Source of the DNA: Hahella sp. CCB-MM4
Lineage (GTDB): Bacteria > Pseudomonadota > Gammaproteobacteria > Pseudomonadales > Oleiphilaceae
Length of the DNA: 64,000 bases
Direction of reading: 5' to 3'
Assembly (NCBI RefSeq): GCF_002260525.1
Contig: NZ_MRYI01000026.1
Span: forward strand, 1 to 64,000
Below the pieces are notes generated by a model that saw only the letters and a program-made list of their open reading frames with translations, did not search any database and was not told where the DNA came from. Of the stretch, positions 37,330 through 54,078 are shown one piece after another (within the stretch, counting starts at the first letter, position 1; each line of letters starts with the position of its first letter). The translations under genes and the position numbers were made by a program.

Positions 37330-38715
37330 TCAGAATGATTTGGTCAGCTGGAATGCCAAACCGTAAGCACTCAGATCATAGGTTCCCTTCACATTCGTGA
37401 GGCCGACCTGTTGATCGTTCACATTGTAGATATGCTCATCCAAAGGCACATCATCAATCAACAGATATCCAAGAGCACCGTCCAGCACCAGATCATTCTC
37501 CATCCGGTATTGAGCTCCAAGCGTGATCCACTGACGATCAGTTGATGGAACCCTTGCGGTCCGGTATTCATTCTCGACAGGGGAATCGTCATAGGCATAA
37601 CCCGCTTTCACCGTAAAACGCTCGGTGTAGTCATAGGAAACACCAACCGAGAAAGCCCAGACATTCTTCCAGCGCTCACGTACGTGGCCGATCATCCCCT
37701 GCTGTCCAGTGGAGGCACCGCTGATGGTGGAAATCTGTCCAATACCGGCCTCTTCACGGGTGAAGATATCCAGATTCTGGAAACGGGACCAGCGAGTCCA
37801 GGTAGCTCCAGCGTATAAAGACCACTGCTCATCCAGGTCATGTTTCAGACTGAAGGTGGCTGTTTCCGGCAGCGTCAGGGGAACTTTCGCTTTTTCGCTC
37901 AACGTGGCGTATGCGACAGGAGGCAATGTTCCCGTCGGCGTGGGCACATTGGTCAGCTCCGCATCACCTTCCAGGGTGAGGTCTATTTTGGTCCGGAAGT
38001 TAAAACCTAACGTGGTGGCGTTGGTAGGCTGGTACATCACCCCGAAGTTCCAGCCAACACCGTTGTCGTCACCAGCCACTTCAAAGTGGCCTTCTTTCAA
38101 GTAAGCAGAAGGAATATTGTAAGGTGGTAATGAGTAGGCAGAATACTCCTGGGCCTTACTCAACTTGCCGTCCAGGTGGATAAAGATCATCCCCAGACCG
38201 ACAGAAAGCTGATCGTTCAACTTATAGGCTACCGTCGGCTGAACCGCGATGCCCTGAACTTCTGTTTCATCAGCAAGGAAACGTCCCAGAAAATCCTCAT
38301 CATACTCACCCGATACACCATAAGGGGCAAAAACGCCGATACCTGCGCTGACGGATTCATTGATGGGAGTACTGTAGTACAGGTTGGGAATGGCTCTCAG
38401 ACTAACATAGTCACCACCGTCGGTACCGGTAACAGGCTGGCCGATGGCATTGGTGGCAGAACCCTCAAAGTCGGAGCTGACATCCAGAAAGGTGATGCCC
38501 CCTGAAACCTGAGCCTTCTCCAGATGGGTCAATCCGGCCGGGTTAAAGTACATGATAGTGGCATTTTCCGGATTGGCAGCCGCTCCAGCGTTAGCGGTTC
38601 CCATAGCGGAAGCACTCTGTTCATTGAGTGCATAACCTGCGGCGAACGCCTGGCCTGAAATTGTGGAAAGCACAGCGGTGCCAAGAAGAGAAACCTGAAA
38701 TAGCTTGGTCTTCAT
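37330..38715 (-). CDS. FadL/OmpP1-family outer-membrane transporter
   Basis: Protein of 461 residues with signal peptide (cleavage after AFA, residue 26). The mature N-terminus begins GYALNEQSASAMGTANAG and includes NPAGL, the plug region of FadL. The C-terminus ends with Phe, as usual for outer-membrane barrels. FadL proteins take up long-chain fatty acids or hydrophobic aromatic compounds through a lateral opening. The substrate is unknown; uptake of lipids would fit the nearby lipid-type oxidation cluster, but this is inference. It is on the opposite strand from its neighbours. Confidence 0.92.
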   Translation of the reverse strand: MKTKLFQVSLLGTAVLSTISGQAFAAGYALNEQSASAMGTANAGAAANPENATIMYFNPAGLTHLEKAQVSGGITFLDVSSDFEGSATNAIGQPVTGTDGGDYVSLRAIPNLYYSTPINESVSAGIGVFAPYGVSGEYDEDFLGRFLADETEVQGIAVQPTVAYKLNDQLSVGLGMIFIHLDGKLSKAQEYSAYSLPPYNIPSAYLKEGHFEVAGDDNGVGWNFGVMYQPTNATTLGFNFRTKIDLTLEGDAELTNVPTPTGTLPPVAYATLSEKAKVPLTLPETATFSLKHDLDEQWSLYAGATWTRWSRFQNLDIFTREEAGIGQISTISGASTGQQGMIGHVRERWKNVWAFSVGVSYDYTERFTVKAGYAYDDSPVENEYRTARVPSTDRQWITLGAQYRMENDLVLDGALGYLLIDDVPLDEHIYNVNDQQVGLTNVKGTYDLSAYGLAFQLTKSF

Positions 38716-39056: not shown

Positions 39057-39932
39057 ATGCCCCACTTCCGATTTCTGGTTAATCCCAATCACCTTATATC
39101 GTCTCGCTTCCGGCATTTTTGCAGCCTGTTAGCAGCGGGGATCACTATGGCTACAGGGATCACAGTGGCTACGGGGATCACAGTGGCGCAGGCTGACGAA
39201 GGCGCGAGCTCCGTATCTGATTCACAACCCACGGAAACCGTTATCATCGGGGTAGAGGCAGGCTCCTACTTTCCACATTACGACGACAGTACCGGTGAAT
39301 ATGAGGGGTTTGGCCGCGCTTTACTGGATGAATTTGCCCGCTACGCCGGCATCGAACTGGAATACCGGATACATCCGCTCAAACGACTGGCAGTATCGGC
39401 CATCTCCGGCCAGGTTTCGTTGCGCTATCCGGATAATCCCTATTGGGAGGCAGACCTTAAGGAGGGCACGGAGATCACCTACAGCCATCCGATTGTGACC
39501 TATGTCGACGGCACCATGGTGCCTCCCAATCGACTGGGTCAGGGCCTGGATAATTTCTACAAGCTCGGAACCGTATCCGGATTCACCCCTTGGCCATACT
39601 TCGCGGCCATCGATGAGGGGAAAATCACAGTCTCAGAAAACAACTCCAGAACCGGCCTCCTACATCAGGTCTTAATGGGACGTCTCGATGGCGCTTATCT
39701 CTCGATCGTGGTGGCCAATCATCAACTGACCTACGGACTGGAACAGCCCGGCGCATTGATATTCGACCCCACCCTTCCCTACAAAAAATCCCACTATCAT
39801 CTGTCGACCTCCACCCGGCCGGATCTGATCAGAAAATTCAACGCATTCCTGCGGGAGGAGTCCGCAAGAGTCGTCCAGATCAAAAGCGATTACAGAGTGG
39901 AAGAAGGGCTCTCTTTTATCCCCGACTATTGA
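39057..39932 (+). CDS. family 3 solute-binding protein with repetitive signal peptide
   Basis: Protein of 291 residues. The signal sequence is unusual: its hydrophobic part has three near-identical copies (GITMAT, GITVAT, GITVAQ), ending at the QADE cleavage region. The mature part is a family 3 binding fold (VIIGVEAGSYFPHYDD, GFGRALLDEFARYAGIELEYRIHPLKRLA, YHLSTSTRPDLIRKFNAFL). It is an orphan receptor without a permease or sensor next to it. The ligand could be an amino acid or an organic acid. Confidence 0.83.
   Translation: MPHFRFLVNPNHLISSRFRHFCSLLAAGITMATGITVATGITVAQADEGASSVSDSQPTETVIIGVEAGSYFPHYDDSTGEYEGFGRALLDEFARYAGIELEYRIHPLKRLAVSAISGQVSLRYPDNPYWEADLKEGTEITYSHPIVTYVDGTMVPPNRLGQGLDNFYKLGTVSGFTPWPYFAAIDEGKITVSENNSRTGLLHQVLMGRLDGAYLSIVVANHQLTYGLEQPGALIFDPTLPYKKSHYHLSTSTRPDLIRKFNAFLREESARVVQIKSDYRVEEGLSFIPDY
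39138..39191. repeat. 18-bp tandem repeat in signal peptide
   Basis: Three adjacent copies of gggatcacagtggctacg (39138-39155, 39156-39173, 39174-39191) with one to three differences, in frame, lengthening the hydrophobic core of the signal peptide by 12 residues. Confidence 0.9.
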
Positions 39933-40419: not shown

Positions 40420-40902
40420 ATGAGTGTAGACGTCGCCCTGGACAACATCCGGATCAAGGAACTGCCCACCATCAACCTCGGTGGTGGTGTTGATCTCGAC
40501 CTGGATAATATCCGCATTAAAGAACTTCCCACCATCGACATCGACCTGGATGCAGATCTCGGGTTGGACAATATCCGCCTGACAGAGCTTGCGCCCATAA
40601 ACGTCGGGATCACCTCTCTGCCCCTGATAAGGCTGGACACTATCCGGCTGGAAACCGACAGCAAGGTTGATCTTGGCCTGGATAACGTCAAAGTGGATCT
40701 GGGATTGGACAACATTCGTATCCGGGAACTCCCGCAACTGGATTTCCAATTCGGCCTGCGTCCGATGCGTTTCCATTTTCCGCTCAGTTACAAATTTTGC
40801 CTGACCCTGTTCGGGTGCCGCATTGTGCAGTTTGAAACCTGCGGTGAAGGTATGATCGTGGCGGAAGACTATGTGGCACATAAAACCGAAACCTGCGATT
40901 AG
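40420..40902 (+). CDS. repeat protein, LDNIRIKELP units
   Basis: Protein of 160 residues without signal peptide. The first 110 residues are built from short repeats with the core LDNIRIKELPTI and variants (LDNIRLTELAPI, LDTIRLETDS, LDNVKVDLG, LDNIRIRELPQL), alternating hydrophobic and charged residues, as in a beta-solenoid or beta-roll. The last 50 residues are different (GLRPMRFHFPLSYKFCLTLF, GCRIVQFETCGEG) and contain four Cys. I do not recognise a domain name. It is the first gene of the 40.4-52 kb cluster, with a 19-base gap to the next gene. A structural or scaffold role is likely by inference. Confidence 0.75.
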   Translation: MSVDVALDNIRIKELPTINLGGGVDLDLDNIRIKELPTIDIDLDADLGLDNIRLTELAPINVGITSLPLIRLDTIRLETDSKVDLGLDNVKVDLGLDNIRIRELPQLDFQFGLRPMRFHFPLSYKFCLTLFGCRIVQFETCGEGMIVAEDYVAHKTETCD

Positions 40903-40921
40903 GCAATAACAGGAGCTGGTT

Positions 40922-41722
40922 ATGAAAACAGCCTATACCGGAGAACCCGGGCGCGACTGGCAGTTGGAAAAAGGACCTTTTACCTTTATCGGAAAACCGG
41001 GAGAGTGCATCGGTGAGCTGACGTTCTCCAATCCTACGGACGATAAGATAAAAATACGTCGCCTCAGTGTTGAATCCGTCACGGATAAAAAACGCAAGGC
41101 CCCGACTCTGGACTCCGCAGAGTTATCCATGCAACTGAGGATTCCTCCTCAATCCACCATCACAGCCCAGGCGTTATTAAACTTTTCCCCATCGACTCCG
41201 CCGGGTAACTATGAGGTTAGACTCGTTTGCGGAGACCGCTCGGAAACGGTACACGTCCAGATCCTGGAAAACCCATCCCTTGCGCTGAATCCGACACATA
41301 CTGTTCTGCGGGGAGCCAGCGGCGATACCTTAAGCTGTAAAGTCCGCATGGAAAATGCCGGTAATGTGCCGCTTAGCGTCGGCGATGTCGGGATGGTCTG
41401 GTTTCGGGAACGAAACTGGATCGGGCGCACCCTGGTCTACAGCCTGCGCGAAGCGGCGGAAGATGAGGACTACGAAGCATTCGCCAATCGTATACTTCAT
41501 GATTTCAAGGCTTCCATTATTCCACCGGTGAGCATTCAAATGGAGCCGTTACCTGATGAAACCCTGCACCCTGCAACGGCGCTTGACCGGACGCTGACCT
41601 TTACCGCCCCACCCGGCCTGCAAAAGGGACGAACATATTCCGGTTTCGTCAAAATCAATATGACTCGGATCTGGTTGGAGCTGTACTGCAACGGGTCGCC
41701 TAACTCCAGTAAACGGAGATAA
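40922..41722 (+). CDS. beta-sandwich protein of the cluster, two domains
   Basis: Protein of 266 residues, no signal peptide. Two consecutive beta-sandwich domains are likely: about 15-125 (GECIGELTFSNPTDDKIKIR, PGNYEVRLVCG) and about 135-260 (HTVLRGASGDTLSCKVRMEN, AGNVPLSVGDV, LQKGRTYSGFVKINM). This has the look of NEW3/fibronectin-type or CARDB-like proteins that are normally extracellular, but it lacks a signal peptide. Similar sandwich regions occur in the next two genes. Function unknown; probably a structural or substrate-binding component. Coupled to both neighbours by gaps of 19 and 17 bases. Confidence 0.72.
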   Translation: MKTAYTGEPGRDWQLEKGPFTFIGKPGECIGELTFSNPTDDKIKIRRLSVESVTDKKRKAPTLDSAELSMQLRIPPQSTITAQALLNFSPSTPPGNYEVRLVCGDRSETVHVQILENPSLALNPTHTVLRGASGDTLSCKVRMENAGNVPLSVGDVGMVWFRERNWIGRTLVYSLREAAEDEDYEAFANRILHDFKASIIPPVSIQMEPLPDETLHPATALDRTLTFTAPPGLQKGRTYSGFVKINMTRIWLELYCNGSPNSSKRR

Positions 41723-41739
41723 GTCAAAGGAGAGATACG

Positions 41740-42462
41740 ATGCACCAGCACACAGCCACCATAGGTAGTGGATGCCACTCTCATCCCGATTGCCCTCCAG
41801 AGAGTCTATCCCTGCCTTCCTGCAAGAGTCTTATTCTGCTGGCTCCACGCCTGATCAGCGCAACCATTAATGCAGGGGCAGGCGTCATCAAGAAGACCTT
41901 CGACGGTTCGCTTAAAGAAAAAGATTGCTGCCACCCCCACCATGAAGACTGCTGCCACCCTCACCATGAAGACTGTTGTCACATTCCGGAAACCCACTGC
42001 CCGGATCAGTGTGTCGGCGTAGTGCATTGGCATGGATGTGTTGGCGATACCCTGCAGCATCACCTGCAGGTGACTAACACCGGCAAGGAGGCTCGAACAT
42101 TTACGCTAGAGGCCACCCCTTTCCCCTGCACAGATAAAAAGGTCACTGTCACCCCAGCCTCTAAAAAGCTGGCTCCCGGGGAAACTCTTAAGTCCGTGAT
42201 CAGCTTTACCATTCCTGAGGAATTGGCCGGAAGTACCTTTAGCGTGGCCGTCAAAATCCAGGGTAAGTACGAGCAATACCTGAAACTCATACTATGTGTG
42301 AAGCCGCGCCAGCATTGCTGTACGGTTGTGGAGCAAGGGGAAATTCCCAAGCGTATCAAAGCCCATCACTGGTACCACCATTTCCAGTGCGAGGAGCCCT
42401 GCTTTGAAGCTATTCCGGAAAATCGCGTCAATAAACCCGGCGCTAAACGGGAGAGCAACTGA
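41740..42462 (+). CDS. Cys/His-rich beta-sandwich protein
   Basis: Protein of 240 residues. The start is rich in His and Cys (MHQHTATIGSGCHSHPDC). At about 61-85 an in-frame repeat gives DCCHPHHE twice followed by DCCHIPETHC. A hydrophobic/helical stretch (about 32-52) lies before it. A beta-sandwich domain follows (about 90-200: GDTLQHHLQVTNTGKEARTF, PGETLKSVISFTIPEELAG), and a tail with CCTVVE and HHWYHHFQCEEPC. Such CCHPHH clusters should bind Zn, Cu or Fe. A good ribosome site (AAAGGAGAG) is present. Metal storage or crosslinking of a coat are possible roles; both are inference. Confidence 0.72.
   Translation: MHQHTATIGSGCHSHPDCPPESLSLPSCKSLILLAPRLISATINAGAGVIKKTFDGSLKEKDCCHPHHEDCCHPHHEDCCHIPETHCPDQCVGVVHWHGCVGDTLQHHLQVTNTGKEARTFTLEATPFPCTDKKVTVTPASKKLAPGETLKSVISFTIPEELAGSTFSVAVKIQGKYEQYLKLILCVKPRQHCCTVVEQGEIPKRIKAHHWYHHFQCEEPCFEAIPENRVNKPGAKRESN
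41923..41982. repeat. 24-bp tandem repeat coding DCCHPHHE
   Basis: Two complete copies (41923-41946, 41947-41970) of gactgctgccaccctcacca plus four bases, and a half copy to 41982. The copies differ at two silent positions and keep the frame, adding metal-binding CCHPHH motifs. Confidence 0.85.
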
Positions 42463-42545
42463 AATGGAAAGAATAACTGAAATAAGAAGAACAACTGAAG
42501 CGGAGAGCTCCTAAAATGAAGAGCACGCCTGAAATGAAAGAGAAC
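42453..42545. repeat. imperfect tandem repeat, about 18-bp units
   Basis: Five degenerate units based on aactgaaatggaaagaat bridge the end of the Cys/His-rich gene and the start of the next gene. The two reading frames share its ends, so growth of the repeat changed both the C-terminus of one protein and the N-terminus of the other. Confidence 0.7.
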
Positions 42546-43214
42546 TTCTTACCGGATACCGAGCCATCTGCCGCAGCGGCTTCCGATACCCAGCTATCAT
42601 TGCTGGCACAAAACTACCGCAGACAGATACAACAGTATTGGCCGAGATTCCAAACCTACGCGCGTCAAGGCCGCCAACTGGGTCAACGCTACAATCAGGC
42701 CGGTCGCCAATTGAAAAATAAATTTGCCAGCGGTTCCTGGCAGCTTGATCAGCAGAGTTCACTGGGGCTGCTGATACTGCCTATTGAAGCTGGCATGCTC
42801 ATCAGCCGACATCTGCTGGCTCTGTTGGAAGACCTGCTGGCGGTCGGAGAACATCGACTTGGACTCAAGGAACTGGAAAAGGGACTGGCGGACAGGCCAC
42901 TTCCCACGCTTGCTCTCAAAGCCAGGCCCGGCGAAAAAATTGAATCCGTATTTCTGATTCAAAATGACCAGCCGCATCAGGTCACTATCGAGCTACAACC
43001 TCAATCCATGGTCGGCCAGGAATCGGGTCCCTGTGACAGTTGTGAGTTTGGCTTTTCTCCCCAGGCAACAACGCTGGAGGCAGGCGCTAACCAAATGGTT
43101 CGCCTGACAACCCAGGTCAGTGAAGACGCGGCAGAAGATATCTACCAGACCCGGATAAATATCCTGGGAATGGAAAACAAAGCATTCTGTATTCAGCTAC
43201 AGGTGTTTTTATAA
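42516..43214 (+). CDS. amphipathic-helix plus beta-sandwich protein
   Basis: Protein of 232 residues. The N-terminal half (about 20-125) is helical with Gln/Arg-rich amphipathic helices (NYRRQIQQYWPRFQTYARQG, QLGQRYNQAGRQLKNKF) and a hydrophobic stretch (LGLLILPIEAGMLISRHLLALLEDLLAV); it resembles phasins and other granule- or membrane-surface proteins in character. The C-terminal half (about 130-232) is a beta-sandwich (IESVFLIQNDQPHQVTIELQ, ANQMVRLTTQVSEDA). A CDSCEF motif is present. It could anchor the other cluster proteins to a lipid or polymer surface; this is inference. Confidence 0.68.
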   Translation: MKSTPEMKENFLPDTEPSAAAASDTQLSLLAQNYRRQIQQYWPRFQTYARQGRQLGQRYNQAGRQLKNKFASGSWQLDQQSSLGLLILPIEAGMLISRHLLALLEDLLAVGEHRLGLKELEKGLADRPLPTLALKARPGEKIESVFLIQNDQPHQVTIELQPQSMVGQESGPCDSCEFGFSPQATTLEAGANQMVRLTTQVSEDAAEDIYQTRINILGMENKAFCIQLQVFL

Positions 43215-43261
43215 AATTGATCTATTATTGATCCTATTACCCACAGGACATAGGTGCTCTT

Positions 43262-44281
43262 ATGACAACAACGACAGCACCCAGACACAAGCAAGGTAGT
43301 GCCACACAAAGGAAATCACGGGCCGGATCAGGGAAGGTAAAAGCGCGTCCAAAGCCTCCCCCCAAACGATCCGAGCAGGAGACGGAAGAAAATATCCGGC
43401 ACCTGCGTGTTGATGCCAACGGCACCTCATTTCATGTTGCGGTTGCCTCTCCCTCCCAAAGCAGCCATGACGGTGACGTGCCTGAAATTTTCTGTCTTCA
43501 CGGCTTCCCCGAAGGTTGGCAAAGCTGGCGTCAATTGATGGACTATCTTCCCGAAGCCCGGATTTATGCCCCGGATCTGCGAGGATATCCAACCTCGGAA
43601 TATCCCAGGGACGGCTACGATGTCTTTACCCTGACCGATGATGTGCGTGAACTGATGGCCAGGTTGAACGTCAAGAAACCGATTCTGTTGACCCACGACT
43701 GGGGCGGCGCCCTGGGTTGGATCTTCGCTCATCGCTTCAGCGACTTGATCAGTCGCCTCGTTGTGGTGAACTGCACCCATCCCAAAACGCTGGTAAGAGC
43801 GGTTTTTCAATTGGATGACTGGCAAACATTTCGCATTCCCTGGGTGCTACCCTTCCAGCCTCCGGTCATTCCGGAGTTACTGCTCACCACCGCAATTGGT
43901 CGCAGACTATTGGAGCTCTCCTTCACCCTGAGGGAAGGCCCGGATGGCAATATGAACCGGCAACTGGTCAAGGAAATGGTCAATCGATACCAGCACAGAA
44001 AAGATCTGCGGGGTGCCATCGAATACTACCGGGCCGTTGTCAAAACACTGGTTATTCCAAAATTGCGGAAAGAACTGGAAGAGGTCTACCAACAGCCGAT
44101 TCAAGTCCCGACAACATTGGTCTGGGGAATGACGGACGAAGCCCTGTCCTCCAAGGTCGCGCAAAAGAGCGAAGGCGATGCGGGTTGCCCGGTGGAATGG
44201 CGTCCTCTTCACGGTATCGGGCATTTCGTGGATCTGGAAGCACCACAGTTACTGGCTGAAGAAGTACGGCGGCTGTTTTAG
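43262..44281 (+). CDS. alpha/beta hydrolase, epoxide-hydrolase-like, basic tail
   Basis: Protein of 339 residues. The first 45 residues are a disordered basic extension (MTTTTAPRHKQGSATQRKSR... KVKARPKPPPKR) before the fold. The hydrolase core has HGFPEGWQSWRQLMDYLPE (oxyanion region with HGxP), the nucleophile elbow THDWGGALGW (Asp nucleophile in place of Ser) and the catalytic His near the end (HGIGHFVDLEAPQ). These are the features of epoxide or haloalkane hydrolases. It may open an epoxide made by the neighbouring oxidative enzymes. The basic tail resembles that at the C-terminus of the GMC enzyme in the same cluster. Confidence 0.85.
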   Translation: MTTTTAPRHKQGSATQRKSRAGSGKVKARPKPPPKRSEQETEENIRHLRVDANGTSFHVAVASPSQSSHDGDVPEIFCLHGFPEGWQSWRQLMDYLPEARIYAPDLRGYPTSEYPRDGYDVFTLTDDVRELMARLNVKKPILLTHDWGGALGWIFAHRFSDLISRLVVVNCTHPKTLVRAVFQLDDWQTFRIPWVLPFQPPVIPELLLTTAIGRRLLELSFTLREGPDGNMNRQLVKEMVNRYQHRKDLRGAIEYYRAVVKTLVIPKLRKELEEVYQQPIQVPTTLVWGMTDEALSSKVAQKSEGDAGCPVEWRPLHGIGHFVDLEAPQLLAEEVRRLF

Positions 44282-44637
44282 CTGCTTTGACGCTTCTATT
44301 GACTTAGGAAAAGAAAGGGACCTAAGCAAAGGCATGGAATAAATCAAAGATATGGACTTGAGCAGAGGATGCTGACTCATAGATGGATATTCTGATGGAA
44401 AGAAATAATGCTGAGGATCACCGGTTCAGGACTTTGTAGGGCAACACTATCCTCCACGCCGATCGTTGCCATCGACGTATCCTGAACCCCGACGGAGCCA
44501 ATCACAACGACGTTGATAACAACAAGAAGGTGATGTCATGGCTCTCAATAAAAACAAGGTTCGCCATGGTGCGAACCATGACCGGGGAAACATCTCACCG
44601 TCCACACCATACCAACAATGGTGCCAGGGAGGTGATC
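44282..44637. other. 356-bp gap in the cluster, no gene
   Basis: No supported gene. The sequence before 44420 is rich in purines (gaaaagaaagggacc, ggcatggaat) and looks like degraded repeat material. An open frame continues upstream from the GMC gene but lacks a ribosome site. A second promoter for the downstream enzymes may lie here. Confidence 0.35.
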
Positions 44638-46386
44638 ATGAAAAGGATCTATGATGTTGTCGTAGTAGGCTCAGGATTTGGCGGTGCCATCACCGCCTGC
44701 CGATTGGCCCAGGCGGGACGTTCAGTCTGCGTATTGGAAAAAGGAAGGCGTTGGGGCCGCACGGAATTCCCCCGCGGCCCGGTCGAGGTTTCTTCCAGGG
44801 CTCTGTGGGATCCCGCAGAAAAGAAACAGGGACAGCAGGGCTTTATCGAATATGTCCCCTTCAAAAACATGGACGTGGTTCAAGGCATTGGGGTGGGCGG
44901 GGGATCACTGCACTATTTCAATGTTCACATCCAGCCACCGGCGTTTATTTTTGATTCTCCCAAATGGCCATCCTCGGTCACCCTGAAATCCATGCGTCCC
45001 TATTACCGGGTCGCGGCCGACATGCTTGGAGCTAAAGGCATCACACCGCCCTACGCCCGGGCACTCCCCTCCCGAACCAAAGCCTTCCAGAATGCGGCAG
45101 AACGCCTGGGACGCCGGGCCGAGCTTGTGCCTATCTGTGTGCATTTTGGGGACGACGGCAAAGTTTCCGCCGGAGGCAGGCCACAGAATGCCTGTGACTA
45201 TTGCGGCAACTGCCTGCTGGGCTGTCATAACCATGCCAAAAACACTCTAGACCTGAACTATATTCCACTGGCCGAGCAGAACGGGGCGGAAGTCTACCCC
45301 CTTCATGAAGTTACCGCGCTGATTCCATGCGATAAGGGCTATCGTGTTGTCTTCCGGGACCATGCCCGCGAGGATGGTGAAACCCGTGGAGAGGTACAGG
45401 CACGTCAGGTCGTCCTGGGTGCCGGAACCCTTGGTACCAACGAATTACTCTTACGCTGCAAAAAACACCTCAAAACACTGCCCAATCTTTCTCCCCAACT
45501 GGGCCGTCGGTTTTCAGGCAACGGCGACTTCATTTTTGCCGGCGCCTATCTTCCCGATCAGCAGGTAGAGCCAGGCCGTGGCCCCGGCATCACGGCCGGT
45601 ATTGGCTTCGCGGATGACGAAGGACAACACATCTACATTGAGGACCTGGGTTTTCCGGATCCCTTTGTCTGGTATTTCAACGCCATGATTCCTCAACCCA
45701 CCCGTCCGTTAAAACGTCTTCAACAACTCCGACGCTACCTTTACAAGGCCTGGGGAAGAGATGCTGAATTTCAATTGGAACGTCTTCTGGAAGAGCGCTT
45801 CCTGAATCACTTCCTCCCTTATCTCGGCATGGGAACTGATGCGGCAGATGGTGTGCTGAAGCTGAATCATCAGGGTCGTCTCAATCTGGATTGGTCCTAT
45901 AAAAACAGTCGCGCCATGTTCAATACCATGCTGGGACATATGCGCTCGATCAGCGAGGCAGCAGGAGGCGTTTTCATCAACAGCTTTATGTGGCGTTCCC
46001 TGGTTTTCAAATGGCCATTCCACAAGACCCTTACCGCCCATCCGCTGGGGGGCTGCGTCATGGCCGACACGCCGATGCAGGGAGTCACCGATTCCTGGGG
46101 CCAGGTCTGGGGCTACCCCGGCCTCTTTGTCGCAGACGGTGCGCTGGTCCCGTCTGCCATTTCCGTCAATCCTTCCGCCACCATCTCGGCACTCGCTGAG
46201 CGGGTGGCATTTCATATGATTCACGGCCGGGAAATGGAGGAAAACGATACCCATACCCCGGTAAATCACCACCGGCAGAGCTCGAAATCAGCCGCGCCAG
46301 CCAGAGCTTCGAAGGGCTCGGCTACCGCCAAACGCTCACGAACAAGACCCAAGAAATCACCCGCCAAAACAGAGGTGTCATCATGA
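44638..46386 (+). CDS. GMC oxidoreductase, cholesterol-oxidase-like, basic tail
   Basis: 582 residues from the ATG at 44638, which has a near-perfect ribosome site GGAGGTGATC; an upstream frame from 44530 has none. FAD-binding motif DVVVVGSGFGGAITACRLAQ at the N-terminus; GVGGGSLHYFNVH next to the flavin; the CDYCGNCLLGCHNHAKN loop; the C-terminal KTLTAHPLGGCVMAD and VADGALVPSAISVNPSATI, close to cholesterol oxidase and other GMC alcohol oxidases. It would oxidise an alcohol or sterol-like substrate and make H2O2. No Tat or Sec signal. The last 45 residues are a basic Ser/Ala/Lys/Pro tail (SSKSAAPARASKGSATAK). The stop overlaps the next start by 4 bases. Confidence 0.88.
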   Translation: MKRIYDVVVVGSGFGGAITACRLAQAGRSVCVLEKGRRWGRTEFPRGPVEVSSRALWDPAEKKQGQQGFIEYVPFKNMDVVQGIGVGGGSLHYFNVHIQPPAFIFDSPKWPSSVTLKSMRPYYRVAADMLGAKGITPPYARALPSRTKAFQNAAERLGRRAELVPICVHFGDDGKVSAGGRPQNACDYCGNCLLGCHNHAKNTLDLNYIPLAEQNGAEVYPLHEVTALIPCDKGYRVVFRDHAREDGETRGEVQARQVVLGAGTLGTNELLLRCKKHLKTLPNLSPQLGRRFSGNGDFIFAGAYLPDQQVEPGRGPGITAGIGFADDEGQHIYIEDLGFPDPFVWYFNAMIPQPTRPLKRLQQLRRYLYKAWGRDAEFQLERLLEERFLNHFLPYLGMGTDAADGVLKLNHQGRLNLDWSYKNSRAMFNTMLGHMRSISEAAGGVFINSFMWRSLVFKWPFHKTLTAHPLGGCVMADTPMQGVTDSWGQVWGYPGLFVADGALVPSAISVNPSATISALAERVAFHMIHGREMEENDTHTPVNHHRQSSKSAAPARASKGSATAKRSRTRPKKSPAKTEVSS

Positions 46387-46832
46387 ACGAGACATTACAA
46401 CGCTGGCTCACACTTTCACGGGAAGAACTGGATGACATCTACAGAAAAGCCAAACCAGGCTCAATTCCCCAGGGGGACACCCAGGGAACGGCCATTCTGG
46501 CAGGCGGACCGTTCCCGAGACTGTTCGCCACCGTTGCTCGCCTGTTGGCCTGGCAAGGCAAGGTATTCGACTTGTTCAAGCCTAATTTCGACAGTGGCGT
46601 TCTGGTCAACAAAATATCCCCGGCGGGTATCAATCTGATAGCAGCCAAGGTCTACCGGGACCACAGCTGGATGGATGGTAAGGACACCATTGTCATCGAC
46701 TATTCCAAAACTTCGTTGTTTGCCAGACAGATCCGGGACGAGATCCGCGAAGTGGAACCTGGACTCTATCTCGGGAAGGTCTGGTGGGGTAATCACCGTA
46801 TCCTCGATTTTGCACTGGAAACCAATACATAA
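46383..46832 (+). CDS. conserved small protein of the GMC/DyP cluster
   Basis: Protein of 149 residues, overlapping the GMC gene by 4 bases, so coupled to it. The sequence has an N-terminal helix (LSREELDDIYRKA), a Gly-rich turn (GDTQGTAILAGGPFPR), and beta strands WQGKVFDLF, DTIVIDYSKTSLFARQIRDE and PGLYLGKVWW. I recall similar proteins next to GMC and peroxidase genes but know no function. It may be a lipocalin-like or nuclear-transport-factor-like small beta barrel that helps the flavoenzyme; this is not shown. Confidence 0.72.
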   Translation: MNETLQRWLTLSREELDDIYRKAKPGSIPQGDTQGTAILAGGPFPRLFATVARLLAWQGKVFDLFKPNFDSGVLVNKISPAGINLIAAKVYRDHSWMDGKDTIVIDYSKTSLFARQIRDEIREVEPGLYLGKVWWGNHRILDFALETNT

Positions 46833-46843
46833 GGACATCAACA

Positions 46844-48232
46844 ATGACCAGTCTTGTCACTCACTTAACCTCTGTGCCCAGGGAAACTACGGGCCTGCTG
46901 AACCGGCTGAAAGAAAAAGCCAAAGGCTTCCTGGATATGCCCCAGAATGCCATCAACCTGTTTGTCCCTATTGAAGAAGACAAAGAACCTGCATTACGGG
47001 AGGTTCTCGAAGCCCTGCAGGAGGATACTCATCACAATGCCATCCTTCCCCTCGCCCACTTCTCCGACTCACTTCATTTCGCCCGATTCCTGATTTATGA
47101 AGGCCCGGAACATCCCAAGGTCTATGGGTCATATCTTGTGTTTATCGCCAATGTGGATGGTCCAGTGGACAGCTTTTTGCAGCAACTGGTCCACAAATCT
47201 TCCGCCGGGCTGGACGCAATCTTCAGCGCCTGTCGGAATTACCCGCCCAAAAGCAAGCGTACCCGGAACGCACGCATGAAGTATCTGCAACAACACCTGC
47301 TCCCGGCACAGGCTTTTTATGTGAATACCATCGGACGCGGAGTAAAGCAGATTCAGGATGAAGAGCGGCTACGGCAGGGCCTGCAGGAATACCTCAACAC
47401 CCTTTCCCACCCCGTGGAGCTCTCGGCCACTGAGTTGCGCCTGCAGATCATCAACCATGTTGCGAAATCACCTGATCTGTTCTGGGCGTTGGAACCGCCA
47501 GTTCGCCCTTCTCTGCTTTGGAAAGCCAAAGAGAACCTGCGTTTTATTACGTTGGCCGGTTTGGGCGTGGTGGTCGTGACCTTTACCTGGCCGTTGATCC
47601 TGGGCTGGGTGGTAGTTGTCCAGATCAAGGAGATGGGAGACGAAGAGCTCACCGACAGGGCATCCCTGGAACGTCTGAATCAGCTCAGGGCCGATGAAGA
47701 TTTCGCCGTTCATAATCAGTTTTCTGCGGCAGGTTCCCTGAAACCCGGACTGATTCGCCGTCTTACCGCCCGTTCCGTCTTGTCACTGGCACAGTTCAGC
47801 CTTCGCCATGTTTTCAACAACGGCGATCTTGCCGGCATTCCTCTGCTCGGGCTGGACGGAGTCGACACCATCCATTTTGCGCATTGGATCATGCTCGATA
47901 ACGATCAACGCCTGCTGTTTGCCAGTAACTATGACGGGAGTCTTGAAAGTTACATGGTGGATTTCATCGATAAGGTCAGTTGGGGACTCAACGTGGTATT
48001 CAGCAATGGCCAGGGCTACCCCCGAACCAACTGGCTGTTCTTTGACGGCGCACGCAATGAACAACGCTTCAAGGACTATCTGGGACACCATCAACTGTCG
48101 ACCCTGGTCTGGCATGCGCCATACAAACATCTGTCTGCCGTAAATATTGCCAATAACGCCAAGATCAGAGCAGGCCTGCGCGGGCGCATGAATGAAAAAC
48201 AGGCCAAAGCCTGGCTGCAGCGGCTGTCCTAA
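46844..48232 (+). CDS. duplicated two-domain protein with central membrane segment
   Basis: Protein of 462 residues. A domain is repeated on either side of a hydrophobic segment (about 233-260, LAGLGVVVVTFTWPLILGW). First copy about 60-185: LHFARFLIYEGPEHPKVYGS, LVFIANVDGPVDSFLQQLV, GLDAIFSACRNYP. Second copy about 335-460: IHFAHWIMLDNDQRLLFASN, YDGSLESYMVDFIDKVSWGL, VVFSNGQGYP. These look like ferredoxin-like (dimeric alpha/beta barrel) half-domains, the fold of DyP peroxidases and chlorite dismutase, but no heme ligand is evident. It probably anchors the cluster's peroxidase at the membrane or binds substrate. Confidence 0.72.
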   Translation: MTSLVTHLTSVPRETTGLLNRLKEKAKGFLDMPQNAINLFVPIEEDKEPALREVLEALQEDTHHNAILPLAHFSDSLHFARFLIYEGPEHPKVYGSYLVFIANVDGPVDSFLQQLVHKSSAGLDAIFSACRNYPPKSKRTRNARMKYLQQHLLPAQAFYVNTIGRGVKQIQDEERLRQGLQEYLNTLSHPVELSATELRLQIINHVAKSPDLFWALEPPVRPSLLWKAKENLRFITLAGLGVVVVTFTWPLILGWVVVVQIKEMGDEELTDRASLERLNQLRADEDFAVHNQFSAAGSLKPGLIRRLTARSVLSLAQFSLRHVFNNGDLAGIPLLGLDGVDTIHFAHWIMLDNDQRLLFASNYDGSLESYMVDFIDKVSWGLNVVFSNGQGYPRTNWLFFDGARNEQRFKDYLGHHQLSTLVWHAPYKHLSAVNIANNAKIRAGLRGRMNEKQAKAWLQRLS

Positions 48233-48356
48233 AAATGACAGCTGAAGAAGACTGTACTGGGCCTGCCTTAGCGCAGCGCTGGATATAACGCAGTGCTGAA
48301 TATGGCGCTGCCCTGGCAAAGGCCGAACAACAGATTGCAATGAGAGGAAGCACCTT

Positions 48357-49862
48357 ATGAAAGATGCTGTGATCGGAAAGATGACCTACACGCTGGATGC
48401 CTCGCAAACCGATAGCCAATTCCTAAGCTATCCGAACCCTGTAGACCTGAGGGAAATCCAGGGACTTGTGGTACGAGGCTACGGCAACCTGCCTGCCGCC
48501 TGTTTCGGTTTTTTCACTATCAACTCTGCCGCCAAAGCCCGAAAGGCTCTGAGCAAGCTTCAGGCCCGCCTGACTTACGCGGAAGAGCGTCCTGCACTTG
48601 AGGCGATTAACCTGGCCTGGACCTATCAAGGGCTGATCAAGATAGGTGTCAGCAAAGAGGTTGCGGATGAGTTTTCCAATGAATTCCGCTCCGGTATGAA
48701 CACCGAACATAAACGTCGGATACTGGGAGATGAGCAGCAAAATGCGCCGGAACACTGGCACTGGGGTGGTCCGGACACCCCTTCTATCGACTTTCTGCTG
48801 CTCTGCTACGCAAAAGACCAGGCGGCTCTTGAACAACTCTATCAGTCGCTGAAAGAGGCCCTGGCGTCATCTGCCGTGGAGGAAATCCTGTGCCTGGATA
48901 CCCAGCTTCTTCCGGAAGCCAAAGAGCACTTTGGTTTCCGGGATGGCATCGCGCAGCCTTTCATCAAAGAATTCGACCGGCAGGGCCGGAATTTCACTCC
49001 GGTACCGTTGGGCGAAATACTGCTTGGATACCCTAACGGTTATGACCGCTATACCCAGCGTCCATTAATACCGGCAGAGCTGGATTTCAGCAACCAGCTC
49101 CCCCCGGATCCAGAGGGCTCTCCGACCCGGGATCTCGGCAAAAACGGAACCTATCTGGTATTCCGCCAGATGTCTCAGGATGTACCGGCATTCTGGCGCT
49201 ATTTGAAAGAACAGGCAGGTTCAGAGGAAAAAGCTATCAGGCTCGCCTCCAAGATGGTGGGGCGCTGGCCCAGCGGAACCCCGATGGTTATGTCTCCGGA
49301 GCAGGACGATCCCTCAGTGACGGACAAAGATGCGTTTGCCTACCATGACACTGACCAACAGGGGTTCAAATGCCCACTGGGTGCCCATATTCGCCGCACT
49401 CACCCCAGAGACTCATTACAACCTGAACCCGGCTCGGAAAAATCGGTCGCCTTCAGCAATCGTCACCGCCTGTTGCGCCGTGGCCGTCCTTATGGAGATC
49501 CCTTTCATCCCACCATGGATCCGATGGAATATATGAAACTATTGGATCAGGACCAGCCATCGACAGAACGGGGACTTCACTTCATTTGCATTAACGCCAA
49601 CATTGGGCGGCAGTTCGAATTCGTACAGCATACCTGGGCAAACAACCCCAACTTTAACGGCCTTTACCAGGATCCTGATCCAATCATCGGCAGCCGGTCT
49701 TCCTATGGCCTGCCCCAGAATCACTTCACACAACAACAATCGCCCGTGCGCAGTCAGATCAGGGAAATGCCGGAGTTTGTCAGAATCAAAGGCGGGGGCT
49801 ATTTCTTCCTGCCCAGCCGCAGTGCCCAGGCATTTATTCTGAGCGCAGGAGTAAACACCTGA
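48357..49862 (+). CDS. DyP-type heme peroxidase, long form
   Basis: Protein of 501 residues, longer than the usual 300-450. DyP signatures: FGFRDGIAQP with the catalytic Asp (about 196), CPLGAHIRRTHPRD with the proximal heme His (about 344) and distal Arg, NRHRLLRRGRPYG, and the C-terminal FVQHTWANNPNFNGLY. It uses H2O2 to oxidise organic substrates. No signal peptide, so it is cytoplasmic unless carried by another protein. It stands between the duplicated membrane protein and the catalase-like gene; the latter starts one base after its stop codon. The H2O2 could come from the GMC oxidase. Confidence 0.9.
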   Translation: MKDAVIGKMTYTLDASQTDSQFLSYPNPVDLREIQGLVVRGYGNLPAACFGFFTINSAAKARKALSKLQARLTYAEERPALEAINLAWTYQGLIKIGVSKEVADEFSNEFRSGMNTEHKRRILGDEQQNAPEHWHWGGPDTPSIDFLLLCYAKDQAALEQLYQSLKEALASSAVEEILCLDTQLLPEAKEHFGFRDGIAQPFIKEFDRQGRNFTPVPLGEILLGYPNGYDRYTQRPLIPAELDFSNQLPPDPEGSPTRDLGKNGTYLVFRQMSQDVPAFWRYLKEQAGSEEKAIRLASKMVGRWPSGTPMVMSPEQDDPSVTDKDAFAYHDTDQQGFKCPLGAHIRRTHPRDSLQPEPGSEKSVAFSNRHRLLRRGRPYGDPFHPTMDPMEYMKLLDQDQPSTERGLHFICINANIGRQFEFVQHTWANNPNFNGLYQDPDPIIGSRSSYGLPQNHFTQQQSPVRSQIREMPEFVRIKGGGYFFLPSRSAQAFILSAGVNT

Positions 49863-49863
49863 T

Positions 49864-51042
49864 ATGAAGACTCTGCCCCAATGGATTCACCAGGGAGCCA
49901 CTCTGGCTGCCGGTATTGTCAGGCGGCTCGACCCTTATTACCGGGACAACTTTGACCGCTACCTGCTCCCTCCTATCGAAACGCTGGCTCAAGCCGTCAT
50001 CCGGGCACGTCTTCGGGACGAAGGACTCAGTCTGGGTCAGGAGTTGGTCAGAAATGACGAAGAGCAGACCACCAACGACATTGCCGACACCATGAACCGC
50101 TTTCTCATCAAACACTACCGAAACACCGGCAAAGTCGCTGAGCGGGCAGGCAACACCAAAACTTACGGTTTACTGAAAGCCAATTTCAACATAGAGCCGG
50201 ATCTGCCGAGAGAACTGAAAATCGGCTTATTCAAGCAGCCGAAATCATTTCCTGCCTACGTCCGCTTTGCCGGGCCCGGCCCTTTGGTCACCCGGGATAT
50301 CGACAACAATGGCATTCTCAGTATCGGCATCAAAGTGATGGGGGTTCCGGGTCGAAAACTGCTCGACGACGAAAAAGCCACCCATGACTTTCTCGGCATC
50401 AGTTCCCCCACGTTTACCACGCCAAATATCTACGAAAACCTGAAGCTCCAGCAGGCAATTGAAAAAGACGCGCCGGCCTGGTATTTCCTGAATCCCCTGG
50501 ATTCCCATTACCTGGATGGGGTTATGCAGGGCCTCTATGCCCGCACCCATGCCAATCCGCTGGAGCTGACTTACTATAGTTGCGTGCCCTATCGCTACGG
50601 CAGCAATCGTGCCGTGAAATATGTGTATCGTCCTCGTATTTCCGGGAAATCCAAAGTAGGCAAACTGACCGAGAACTATCTGCGGGAAGCGATGGTCGCC
50701 ACTCTGGCTCAAAAGAATATGGTGTTCGACATGTTCATCCAGATACAAGTGGATCCTGTTTCGATGCCACTGGAGAACGCCTCTGTGGTCTGGTCCGAGC
50801 GGAGTTCTCCCCTGATACGAGTCGCCACCATCGAAATACCGAGGCAAACCTTTGACAGCGCCGCCCAACTGGCTTTTGCCCGCAACCTGACATTCAACCC
50901 CTGGCATGCACTGGCTGAGCACCGCCCACTGGGAAATCAGAACCGGGCACGGAAACACATTTATCAGGCAACATCAAAAATGCGGCAAGGCATCAACAAG
51001 GAGCAACATATCGAACCCACAGGAGATGAGGTGTTTATTTAG
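49864..51042 (+). CDS. catalase-fold heme protein lacking distal His
   Basis: Protein of 392 residues of the short catalase family (y4iL-like). The catalase core is visible: LPRELKIGLFKQPKSFPAYVRFAG, IGIKVMGVPGRKLLDDE, ATHDFLGISSPTFTTPN, and the proximal RKHIYQATSKMR with the heme Tyr (about 367). The distal His, which normally lies in HxKxHG or VHARGAG, is replaced: the region reads NTKTYGLLKANFNI, with Tyr at about 101, and the distal Asn region reads GISSP. Normal catalase activity is therefore unlikely; a peroxide isomerase role as in allene oxide synthases is possible, also unproven. One base separates it from the DyP gene. Confidence 0.8.
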   Translation: MKTLPQWIHQGATLAAGIVRRLDPYYRDNFDRYLLPPIETLAQAVIRARLRDEGLSLGQELVRNDEEQTTNDIADTMNRFLIKHYRNTGKVAERAGNTKTYGLLKANFNIEPDLPRELKIGLFKQPKSFPAYVRFAGPGPLVTRDIDNNGILSIGIKVMGVPGRKLLDDEKATHDFLGISSPTFTTPNIYENLKLQQAIEKDAPAWYFLNPLDSHYLDGVMQGLYARTHANPLELTYYSCVPYRYGSNRAVKYVYRPRISGKSKVGKLTENYLREAMVATLAQKNMVFDMFIQIQVDPVSMPLENASVVWSERSSPLIRVATIEIPRQTFDSAAQLAFARNLTFNPWHALAEHRPLGNQNRARKHIYQATSKMRQGINKEQHIEPTGDEVFI

Positions 51043-51105
51043 GGACTGTTCGTCCTATTTGGAAAACCACTGACCCAATCCAGAATAAGAATCAGGAGGT
51101 ACATT

Positions 51106-51957
51106 ATGGGTCTTACTGATTTTATAGACCGTGGCACCAACGTTATTAAAAACCTGCCCTATCTGTATGAGGTGCTGTCCCCCATGGACACGGATGCACC
51201 CTATTCAGAAATGAATTCACACAACTATGCTTCCAAGTGGAAATTCACCGACATGATCCGGAGCAGCCTGCTTCCTATCTATGCGCCCTTCAAAGGCGTT
51301 CCCACCCTGCCCTTTGAGAAACCGGATCGCCCGCCCATAGAGGATAACCAACAATGGTTTTTCCTGAACGGCATCTGCACCAATCAGGACGTTCTCAAGT
51401 TGAACGGCAAAGCGTTGGCAGACTTGTTCGGAAGAACCATATACCTGCTACATAATCCCTCCGACGGCATTGTTCTTGATCTGCTGGAATGTGCCGTAGG
51501 GCGGACCATGCAGCCGGTTTCCACCCTGGACAACAGTGTCGCCGCCATTCTGGAACAGGCTCTGGAAGCACACACCAAAGTGGTTCTGATTGCCCACTCC
51601 CAGGGGGGAATTATCAGTGCCCGTGCGTGCCGGATACTGGCCGAAAAGCTGGGGGCGACGGAACGCGGAGACTGGCTTAAAAAGCTGGAGCTGTATACCT
51701 TTGCCAGTGCCGCCACCAGTCTGGACATACCGGCCATTTATGCCGAGCATTACTTCAATACCCAGGACTATGTGGCCAGAATCGGCGTTGCCGGAAACCC
51801 GCAACGCTTTTCCGGTAAAAAATTCGAGTATGACGCCACGGGCCACTTACTCAATACCCACTATCTACCCCATTTCACCGCGAACGCATACAAGAGTAAA
51901 ACCCGGGCCCGTAGCCGTTTGTTTACCTATCTGGATCCCAGAAGGAATGGGGGGTAA
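51106..51957 (+). CDS. lipase-like alpha/beta hydrolase
   Basis: Protein of 283 residues. A nucleophile elbow VVLIAHSQGGIISARACRIL (Ser at about 166) and a WFFLNGICTNQDVLKLNG start of the core mark an alpha/beta hydrolase of lipase or thioesterase type. The acid is likely Asp in FNTQDYVARIG, the His near the end (TGHLLNTHYLPHFT). A perfect ribosome site AGGAGGTAC is in front. It is the last gene of the co-directional cluster. It may release a fatty acid or ester that the other enzymes oxidise. No signal peptide. Confidence 0.82.
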   Translation: MGLTDFIDRGTNVIKNLPYLYEVLSPMDTDAPYSEMNSHNYASKWKFTDMIRSSLLPIYAPFKGVPTLPFEKPDRPPIEDNQQWFFLNGICTNQDVLKLNGKALADLFGRTIYLLHNPSDGIVLDLLECAVGRTMQPVSTLDNSVAAILEQALEAHTKVVLIAHSQGGIISARACRILAEKLGATERGDWLKKLELYTFASAATSLDIPAIYAEHYFNTQDYVARIGVAGNPQRFSGKKFEYDATGHLLNTHYLPHFTANAYKSKTRARSRLFTYLDPRRNGG

Positions 51958-52125: not shown

Positions 52126-52908
52126 ATGTATCCAGGTGTTTGTGTTGCCAGACTTGTCATCCTGGCTCTGCTATGGTTTCCCATTATCAGCTCCGCTGAA
52201 GAAGCTCGTGGAAACGTCAGCATTGCCATTGGTGAATGGGAACCGTTCATCAGTGAATCCTACCCCCACTTCGGCATCATTCCCCACATAATTTCTGAAA
52301 TATACAAAGATGCGAATATTGAAGTGACCTATGGTTTCTTTCCCTGGAAGCGCTCTTATTCCCAGGTAAAGGACGGTAAATGGAACGCGTCGGCCATTTG
52401 GGGCAGAACCCCGGAAAGAGAACAGGACTGTCTGTATTCGGACGTCGTTTATACGGGTGAGATTGTGCTCTTCTATCGCAAAGAAGATAGACCCATCACC
52501 TGGAATGGAAACCTGCAGGATCTGAAAGGGCTCTCCATCGGCCTTCCCATGGGCAGCGCCAAAGCCCAGCCGCTGCAGGAAGCGGAAGCACGAGGTTTGA
52601 TTGTCTATGACGTGAGCGTCGACCACGTGGGGATTTTCAAGAAACTTCTGGCCGGCCGTTTTGATGCCGTGGACGAAAACAAGGCCGTCGGCCTGTACAA
52701 CCTCCATACCCAGTTTTCCAATAGAGAGCAGGACATGGTGGCATTTACGGCACCGCTTGAATCATGGGACTACCACGTCATATTTTCTCGCGCGTTACCA
52801 GACAACCGAAAATACCGGGACCTATTTAACCAGGGCCTGCAGAGAATGAAACAGGATGGCCGTTTTCACCAGATGTGGGAGGCATTCTACCGGGGGGACT
52901 ACAACTAA
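52126..52908 (+). CDS. family 3 solute-binding protein, orphan
   Basis: Protein of 260 residues with signal peptide (cleavage near ISSAEE, about residue 25). The fold is family 3: IAIGEWEPFISESYPHFGII, GFFPWKRSYSQVKDGKWNAS, LKGLSIGLPMGSAKAQP and the closing MKQDGRFHQMWEAFYRGDYN. This is the type that occurs in many copies in marine gammaproteobacteria and is often without a transporter. It follows the cluster by 168 bases on the same strand but need not belong to it. Confidence 0.85.
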   Translation: MYPGVCVARLVILALLWFPIISSAEEARGNVSIAIGEWEPFISESYPHFGIIPHIISEIYKDANIEVTYGFFPWKRSYSQVKDGKWNASAIWGRTPEREQDCLYSDVVYTGEIVLFYRKEDRPITWNGNLQDLKGLSIGLPMGSAKAQPLQEAEARGLIVYDVSVDHVGIFKKLLAGRFDAVDENKAVGLYNLHTQFSNREQDMVAFTAPLESWDYHVIFSRALPDNRKYRDLFNQGLQRMKQDGRFHQMWEAFYRGDYN

Positions 52909-52953: not shown

Positions 52954-54078
52954 CTACCGGGAAAACCTAACAACATTAATCGGTGGCAGATGATGGGACA
53001 AACATTGCCAATGATCTCCCTGATCTTCGGATACCCAGAGATTACCGGTGGTCGAGCCAAAGGCTAATACCTTCCCGTCAGAGTCGACATCCAGTGCGTG
53101 GCGATAGGTCAGGTCGTAGGCCTTTTCCTGAGGCAAGCCATTGCAGAGTGTTTCAAAAGTCTTACCCCCATCACGGGTACGGGTCACCACCAGCCTGCCG
53201 TCAACGGGAACACGGGTTTCATCTTTCACTCCGGGAACAAACCAGGCGATGTCCGGATTTAGCGGATGCACTGCCACTGCAAATCCGAAAACAGACGGAA
53301 ATACATCCTTGATCTCATTCCAATTCAGGCCACCATCGATGGAACGAAAGATACCATTGTGATGTTGAATCCAGAGATGGTCGGGAGCTGACGGACATCT
53401 CACCATCCGGTGAGGATCCTGGCTTCTTTGTTCAAAAGCCTGCTCCGGCGGCATATATGCGGCCCGCAGCCCTTTTCCAACCAACTCCCAGGTTCCGCCT
53501 CCATCCAAGCTTTGCCAGACACCCCCGCAGGAGATGGCCAGACTCAGATGTCGGCTATTATCGGGATGCACACTGATGGAATGAATACCGGGATGGTCAT
53601 ACCCTCCCCCAAACCAGAATTCCCGCTCAGGACGCTGCCAAAGAGGTTCGATCAACTGCCAGGAACTGCCATTGTCCGCGGATTTAAACAGACCGCCGGG
53701 AATAGTACCGGCCCAGAGCACTCCAGGTTCGTCAGAGCCTCCGGTCACCAATTCCCAGATTTGTTCCACCGAGGGAGCGTCTTTAACTGATTCTCCAGCT
53801 TCAGTCGATTCTGCTGAAACTGAAGGGCTGTCCTGTACCGGAAATCTGGGCGGTTCGATTTCCTCCCAGTGCGAGCTACCGCCGGAGCGCCTGTGCATCT
53901 TTACGCCAAAATGCCCGAGGTTTAAAGCAACGTACTGGTATCCATTGCGATGATCGTGCAGCAGCATCGTCACGGGATCGCCAAGGAATTCCGGATCGCT
54001 TGCCGTCCATTGCCCGGCAGCGTTGCGTTCATAAATAAACAGACCTTTACGGGTTCCTACTTGAAGCTTCAGAGTCAT
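52954..54078 (-). CDS. beta-propeller (BNR/sialidase-like) protein
   Basis: Protein of 374 residues with no signal peptide. Repeats of the BNR type, such as LFKSADNGSSWQLIEPLW, VWQSLDGGGTWELVGKG, IFRSIDGGLNWNEIKDV, TRTRDGGKTFETLCNGL and LWVSEDQGDHWQCLSH, form a propeller of about six blades. Such proteins are annotated as glycosidase or photosynthesis assembly factor (Ycf48-like), but no sialidase active-site Arg triad is evident. Often the gene is paired with a ThiS/MoaD-like gene, as here on the same strand upstream. A binding or assembly role is likely. Confidence 0.82.
   Translation of the reverse strand: MTLKLQVGTRKGLFIYERNAAGQWTASDPEFLGDPVTMLLHDHRNGYQYVALNLGHFGVKMHRRSGGSSHWEEIEPPRFPVQDSPSVSAESTEAGESVKDAPSVEQIWELVTGGSDEPGVLWAGTIPGGLFKSADNGSSWQLIEPLWQRPEREFWFGGGYDHPGIHSISVHPDNSRHLSLAISCGGVWQSLDGGGTWELVGKGLRAAYMPPEQAFEQRSQDPHRMVRCPSAPDHLWIQHHNGIFRSIDGGLNWNEIKDVFPSVFGFAVAVHPLNPDIAWFVPGVKDETRVPVDGRLVVTRTRDGGKTFETLCNGLPQEKAYDLTYRHALDVDSDGKVLAFGSTTGNLWVSEDQGDHWQCLSHHLPPINVVRFSR

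Follow-up and report, generated by a model that had tools for sequence, protein, structure and literature searches.

An eleven-gene cluster of Hahella sp. CCB-MM4 joins a structural-looking module to an oxidation module built around a DyP-type peroxidase

Protein-made surfaces loaded with a DyP-type peroxidase or standing beside a polyhydroxyalkanoate (PHA) synthase are known as encapsulins and as granule coats (phasins). DyP-type peroxidases themselves work with an Asp, a His and an Arg in their active site, and in epoxide hydrolases the Asp of the HDWGG motif is the nucleophile and an HGFP motif belongs to the signature. A further point of comparison is coral allene oxide synthase (AOS), a catalase relative in which, according to PMC5617202, the haem is held by R64, R102 and R360, the distal residues are H67, T66 and N137, and the proximal ligand is Y353; as described there, the enzyme keeps these residues yet does not scavenge H2O2. 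Here we describe a gene cluster that can be compared with these systems. It lies at positions 40420-51957 of a 64,000-nucleotide stretch of Hahella sp. CCB-MM4 (contig NZ_MRYI01000026.1; hereafter the window) and consists of eleven open reading frames (ORFs), which we designate A to K in their order. All eleven are present on the + strand and fill the interval, as the initial annotation of this DNA had proposed. The cluster is composed of two modules: A-B-C-D is structural, and E-K is an oxidation module whose core is formed by G, H, the DyP-type peroxidase (gene I) and J. The novelty lies in the gene set and in its pair of unnamed modules; the reactions themselves may prove to be of a familiar kind.

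The whole set is conserved. Gene H was found in 6 of the 163 genomes of the family, that of CCB-MM4 included, and the order A-B-C-(D)-E-F-G-H-I-J-K is identical in all five others. Relatives that carry A-K include Hahella ganghwensis, which also provides the closest named record for H (84%), Marinobacter changyiensis, M. caseinilyticus and Marinobacter sp. SS21. Because the same order recurs in five further genomes a chance arrangement is excluded, and the grouping first read from one sequence is thus kept together elsewhere. Within the A-K loci gene D was detected in the two Hahella only (2/6 loci, E up to 1e-3). When the flanks of the six loci were compared (ORFs of at least 100 amino acids, 1.0-4.7 kb per side, E up to 1e-8), the only common gene was a FadL gene, which is shared by the two Hahella; in the window it encodes a FadL/OmpP1-type outer membrane transporter at 37330-38715, upstream of the cluster, and we do not claim it as a member of the system. 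Since the flanks differ among the six loci, the borders at A and K are probably real. Together these observations suggest that the A-K set moved, or was retained, as one unit. In agreement with the initial annotation, which knew no name for this combination of structural-looking proteins and oxidation enzymes, searches of open-licence papers listed none that names or describes the gene set.

The core of the oxidation module is distributed far more widely than the complete cluster. A scan of 84,980 species genomes, derived from the H alignment, yielded 140 pattern matches, and 61 loci from several phyla were confirmed, four of them A-K loci. The scan rests on two short peptide patterns and hence is not exhaustive, and the sample of loci is biased both by these patterns and by which neighbours were labelled. 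A DyP gene was present near H in 61 of these 61 loci. By tblastn over 62 loci (L010 included), G was found in 55 and J in 49; among the 41 loci whose sequence extends more than 4.5 kb to either side of H, the counts were 40 for G and 38 for J. The G counts are taken from tblastn and the long-flank loci, an ORF set starting at 150 amino acids undercounting this 149-residue protein. The distances between H and DyP correlate with r=0.96 over 47 loci, and those between the other core pairs with 0.78-0.86, in both cases without control for species relatedness. In addition, natural fusions were observed between G and H (two loci, L017 and L020), between H and DyP (seven loci: L021, L069, L095, L098, L104, L105 and L106), between J and H (L067) and between DyP and J (L094); L103 resembles an H-DyP fusion and was left out of the count. 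Because natural fusions link them, the G, H, DyP and J proteins probably form, and act as, a complex.

In a sample at the level of the phylum, H was found in 26 of 398 genomes, and in 11 of the 11 of those regions that were fetched at length (L093-L103) DyP was encoded beside or within the H gene. The matches in L099, L101 and L102 are half-size H genes; in the first of these (L099:4075-9069) each half of H has a gene of its own, the two lying side by side, and behind them come genes for DyP, a patatin phospholipase and a P450. Plasmids of Novosphingobium (L104) and Sulfitobacter (L106) encode giant proteins in which H-like and DyP domains are fused, one being annotated as DyP and the other, that of L106, as P450. 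In total 44 plasmid records match H, none of them over 80% of its length.

Two of the core proteins fall outside assigned families. H (46844-48232, 462 amino acids) has two similar halves on either side of a hydrophobic stretch (residues 241-259, mean hydropathy 2.26); the halves were recognised by eye, HFA and NxDG motifs being repeated. Membership of H in a known Pfam family was rejected: across 45 members matches appeared in one or two members only, the best single one being PF13796 (1.6e-05), and no credible relative was found in the PDB (best E 0.69). For the conserved core protein G (46383-46832) a calycin/DUF4334-like label was likewise dropped, as 38 members gave single weak Pfam matches (best E 0.023), and G had no PDB match. 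Because the core spans several phyla and several core proteins match no Pfam family, findings from a single strain would help to annotate a large number of genomes.

The third core protein, I (48357-49862), is a DyP-type peroxidase. It scores 129.7 bits against TIGR01413, for which the cut-off is 100.5 bits, and in Pfam DyP_N is above and Dyp_perox_C below the cut-off. The active-site residues D196, H344 and R374 are intact and kept in 60 of 60 rows of the alignment. It shares these features with DyP-type peroxidases in general; the difference is that I pairs with H, and usually with G and J, and that some genomes fuse P450, H and DyP into one protein in that order. A DyP with a near-constant partner such as H could help to explain what bacterial DyPs really do. 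In a phylogenetic tree the DyPs of the six A-K loci form one clade (100/100), which is sister (100/96) to that of L016, a Desulfuromonadales locus with an An_peroxidase and a P450. Because the tree places L016 as sister, A-K appears to be this core with A-F standing where L016 has its An_peroxidase/P450 front end.

Which proteins stand beside the core varies among genomes. Within 6.5 kb of H, a homologue of a diheme c-type protein was found in 39 of the 61 loci, a GMC homologue in 37 and a homologue of An_peroxidase, a dioxygenase-type haem peroxidase, in nine, and at least one of these three was present in 53. The reference sequences for these labels were taken from the same loci, with Pfam confirming three of three An_peroxidase and two of two GMC sequences scanned. 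Seven of the eight loci without such a partner are 4.2-12.1 kb long; the exception is L065, a cyanobacterial locus of 21 kb. Two diheme proteins were examined; each has two CxxCH motifs, and their matches, to di-heme peroxidases or RoxB/RoxC, are weak only. A large diheme c-type protein with a weak di-heme-peroxidase match stands beside GMC and the core at L044:5155-7734. The fusion proteins of L095 and L098 carry a P450 ahead of H-DyP, and a patatin phospholipase is the partner in one locus.

These partners bear on a reading in which the core has no dedicated product and clears lipid hydroperoxides and epoxides from membrane or stored lipid. Peroxidases, catalase relatives and epoxide hydrolases are typical clean-up enzymes, and the hydrophobic segment of H would suit such a role. 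However, An_peroxidase, P450, diheme protein and GMC are found beside the core or fused to it, and the distribution is very patchy, as the few H-bearing genomes of the family illustrate. We therefore regard detoxification as improbable.

The other enzymes of the module were assigned as follows. Profile matches confirmed the initial labels for the GMC protein, DyP and the two alpha/beta hydrolases, E and K. Epoxide hydrolases account for all five PDB matches that E (43262-44281) gave at E up to 1e-20, and the motifs HGFP (in E, HGFPEGW) and HDWGG are both present in eight of eight homologues examined, so that by its motifs and closest relatives E qualifies as an epoxide-hydrolase-like alpha/beta hydrolase. 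K (51106-51957) is a serine hydrolase of the DUF676-like lipase/esterase type, with DUF676 above cut-off and HSQGG kept in 6 of 6 loci. F (44638-46386) is a GMC flavoenzyme that resembles solved cholesterol oxidases overall and retains the HPLGG and NPSATI motifs. It differs from cholesterol oxidases in reaching only 238.2 of the 850 bits required by NF058674, so that membership was rejected, and in an additional CxxCxxCxxxC motif, which all six A-K loci share and which the four other GMC proteins examined lack. Judging from this motif F perhaps carries an iron-sulfur (Fe-S) cluster; it could pass its electrons to an acceptor different from O2 and may then be no H2O2-forming oxidase.

J (49864-51042) had been labelled a catalase-fold protein. 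This label holds indirectly: J itself has no Pfam match and is tied to the catalases through a second catalase-like protein of Sedimenticola, to which it is ~35% identical (one such protein passes the Pfam catalase cut-off), and through a profile that matches coral AOS (1u5u) weakly (E=0.00033). The second catalase-like protein of Sedimenticola (L027:8470-9513) stands beside an An_peroxidase protein and, by eye, has Gln-Ala-Lys at the place of the His-Ala-Lys of catalases. In J the residues R94, R134, R374 and Y367 are each kept in 34 of 34 rows, and the spacing from Tyr to Arg is seven residues, as in coral AOS. The position of coral-AOS H67 is occupied by N97 in 33 of 34 rows, the exception being L065, which has His. 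Of the two residues that mark a catalase, J thus has the proximal Tyr and not the distal His. We hold a catalase function unlikely for this haem protein, though the distal alignment is weak. If true, a catalase relative with a distal Asn would represent an unusual active site within the catalase superfamily.

The likeness to the coral pathways in which catalase-related AOS or hydroperoxide lyase (HPL) is joined to lipoxygenase (LOX) consists in the putative relatedness of J, with its proximal Tyr and haem Arg residues, and in the dioxygenase-type haem peroxidase homologue near the core in nine of the 61 loci. The Asn at the distal-His place and the lack of a lipoxygenase domain set the cluster apart from AOS-LOX and HPL-LOX, and we know of no counterpart of DyP, H, G or A-D in these pathways.

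The features of F and J also bear on a mechanism built on the initial annotation, in which F would make H2O2 for DyP, J would be a catalase-type safety valve and all would be held on an A-D scaffold. The cholesterol-oxidase-like character of F, the intact catalytic residues of DyP and the GMC homologues that stand near the core in more than half of the loci are in line with this scheme. It is weakened by the Asn found at the catalase distal-His place of J and by the Cys motif of F, and 24 of the 61 loci have no GMC near the core (some of them are short), while the An_peroxidase loci have that protein instead or besides. Hence the proposed coupling of a peroxide producer with peroxide users is supported in part only, and we consider the scheme as a whole rather unlikely.

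The structural module was delineated by searches with its individual proteins. A (40420-40902) is a 160-residue LP-rich repeat protein with LDNIRIKELPTI-type units (LDNIRIKELP) and no Pfam family, whose conserved C-terminus carries RPMRFHFPL and CGE motifs. B (40922-41722, 266 amino acids) is structural-looking and gave no Pfam match or other domain match in the profile scan. C (41740-42462, 240 amino acids) is Cys/His-rich, with conserved IPETxCP and HHWYHHFQC motifs that would possibly allow it to bind metal. Its middle part is Ig-like (HYDIN/ASH-like), and the C-terminus of D (42516-43214, 232 amino acids) is PapD/Ig-like, in both cases at sub-threshold scores only. Accordingly, of the three beta-sandwich proteins initially described, C and D rest on these matches and B on none.

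In the order (293 genomes) A gave five matches: CCB-MM4, one Marinobacter and three genomes of another family with A alone. An extended A profile matched 2 of the 398 genomes of the phylum sample, and B, searched in the class (369 genomes), matched four, namely CCB-MM4 and three from other families. The A-B-C-D set is present in the same order and tightly packed in three loci from three gammaproteobacterial families (L114, L115 and L116), where BLAST over the 17-18 kb fetched detected no homologue of E, G, H, DyP, J or K; L115 showed only a short FAD-motif match to GMC. The genomes of these three loci gave no H match. Comparison of profiles between the cluster proteins and their stand-alone counterparts gave probabilities of 98.8% for A, 99.2% for B, 99.9% for C and 88.9% for D, the best off-diagonal pair being D-C with 67.6%. 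A D-like gene closes the stand-alone sets; by BLAST alone D was recognised in L115 only. A wider scan of the orders of genomes G937 (54 genomes) and G849 (2 genomes) revealed no further A-B-C-D case. Conversely, only four of the 61 loci with H gave tblastn matches to A, B and C, some of these loci being short. A-D therefore constitutes a module of its own, which occurs also where the enzymes are absent, and the initial statement that the enzymes are held on a protein scaffold is not supported in that form. An 822-residue ORF beside the lone A in L090 looks antisense by eye and was dropped.

In L116 (5435-9780) the stand-alone set is followed by a same-strand PHA synthase gene (PF07167, 3.9e-55), an arrangement that may point to a role at a granule surface; no PHA synthase was present among the scanned neighbours in L114 and L115. 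A-D differ from encapsulins and phasins in lacking a match to either family. For phasins, ten proteins (one A, one B, four C and four D) gave no match at E up to 10. No encapsulin model appeared among the Pfam matches of A-K or among the NCBIfam matches of ten of the proteins (E lay outside that scan, and for F the best 25 of 103 matches were considered). One way to read these data is that A-D is a new coat or matrix on an intracellular lipid or polymer body with a lineage-specific enzyme load, an 'oxidation organelle' without a known shell, which would carry PHA synthase in one lineage and the G-H-DyP-J complex in Hahella and Marinobacter. We consider this broader reading unlikely. As a module, A-D would represent a novel type of structural protein set, one that lends itself to direct tests by microscopy.

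The independence of A-D could also mean that its linkage to the enzymes is due to chance, E-K being a tailoring or catabolic pathway for a special compound such as an oxylipin, a carotenoid, a sterol or an isoprenoid polymer. The occurrence of A-D alone fits this possibility, as do the An_peroxidase-domain proteins among the front ends and the diheme proteins there, whose matches to di-heme peroxidases and RoxB/RoxC are weak. On the other hand, A, B and C accompany E-K in all six A-K loci although the flanks differ, which suggests joint selection, and we judge such a pathway with a fortuitous neighbour quite unlikely.

That A-D and E-K are linked in six genomes points to a joint function. The reading we prefer, tentatively and at slightly below even chances, is that of a two-module cluster in which E-K oxidises a hydrophobic, most likely lipid-type, substrate and A-D gives a surface that gathers the enzymes. 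The oxidation module would probably be intracellular. K could free or re-form esters, and F would oxidise an alcohol with flavin adenine dinucleotide (FAD), perhaps via an Fe-S relay; DyP may then work in complex with G and H, the latter probably attached to a membrane. J, with its predicted distal Asn, would rearrange or split a hydroperoxide instead of dismutating H2O2, and E would open an epoxide arising along the way. The independently inherited repeat and Ig-like proteins A-D would assemble into a matrix or surface at which these enzymes are gathered, possibly located on a storage inclusion or a membrane. A hydrophobic substrate, in line with the lipid, polymer or sterol envisaged from the outset, is consistent with the epoxide-hydrolase-like E, the coral-AOS-related J and the dioxygenase-type, P450 and, in one locus, patatin partners seen elsewhere.

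Several observations count against this two-module reading. Beyond the A-K loci, E and K seldom accompany the core: close homologues of E (60-61%) stand with it in two further loci, L022 and L023, and K in none. A source of hydroperoxide is missing from the picture, because the genome of CCB-MM4 gave no lipoxygenase or An_peroxidase match, in searches whose controls were likewise silent. The three genomes with a lone A carry an H-like half elsewhere. A PHA synthase gene (phaC) adjoins only one of the three stand-alone A-B-C-D loci, and the one phaC of CCB-MM4 is on another contig. Finally, Asn97 was placed by residue spacing and by the single cyanobacterial row with His; because the distal part of the alignment between J and coral AOS scores 0.5 bits only, this register is a good inference and not proof.

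The genes of the cluster are closely spaced for the most part, the successive gaps from A to K being 19, 17, 53, 47, 356, -4, 11, 124, 1 and 63 bp. The small gaps or overlaps noted initially are hence correct for most junctions and not for E-F (356 bp) and H-I (124 bp). Start codons were partly guessed; that of F was taken as ATG 44638, and the E-F gap becomes 248 bp with GTG 44530, at which the ORF opens. Basic tails are present on E, at its N-terminus, and on F in Hahella only, and as they are not conserved we rejected them as loading signals. Promoter-like sites (3 versus 9.0 in shuffles) and terminator-like sites (17 versus 14.3, sd 4.1) were not above chance. In this genome of 6.66 Mb the G+C content of the cluster (about 52-54%) slightly exceeds that of the 40 kb preceding it (about 47-52%). 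Two proteins that, read from the sequence, resemble periplasmic solute-binding proteins frame the cluster (window positions 39057-39932 and 52126-52908); neither had a match in the fetched stretches of the five relatives. A Sortilin/BNR-repeat protein is encoded on the minus strand at 52954-54078, adjoining the cluster.

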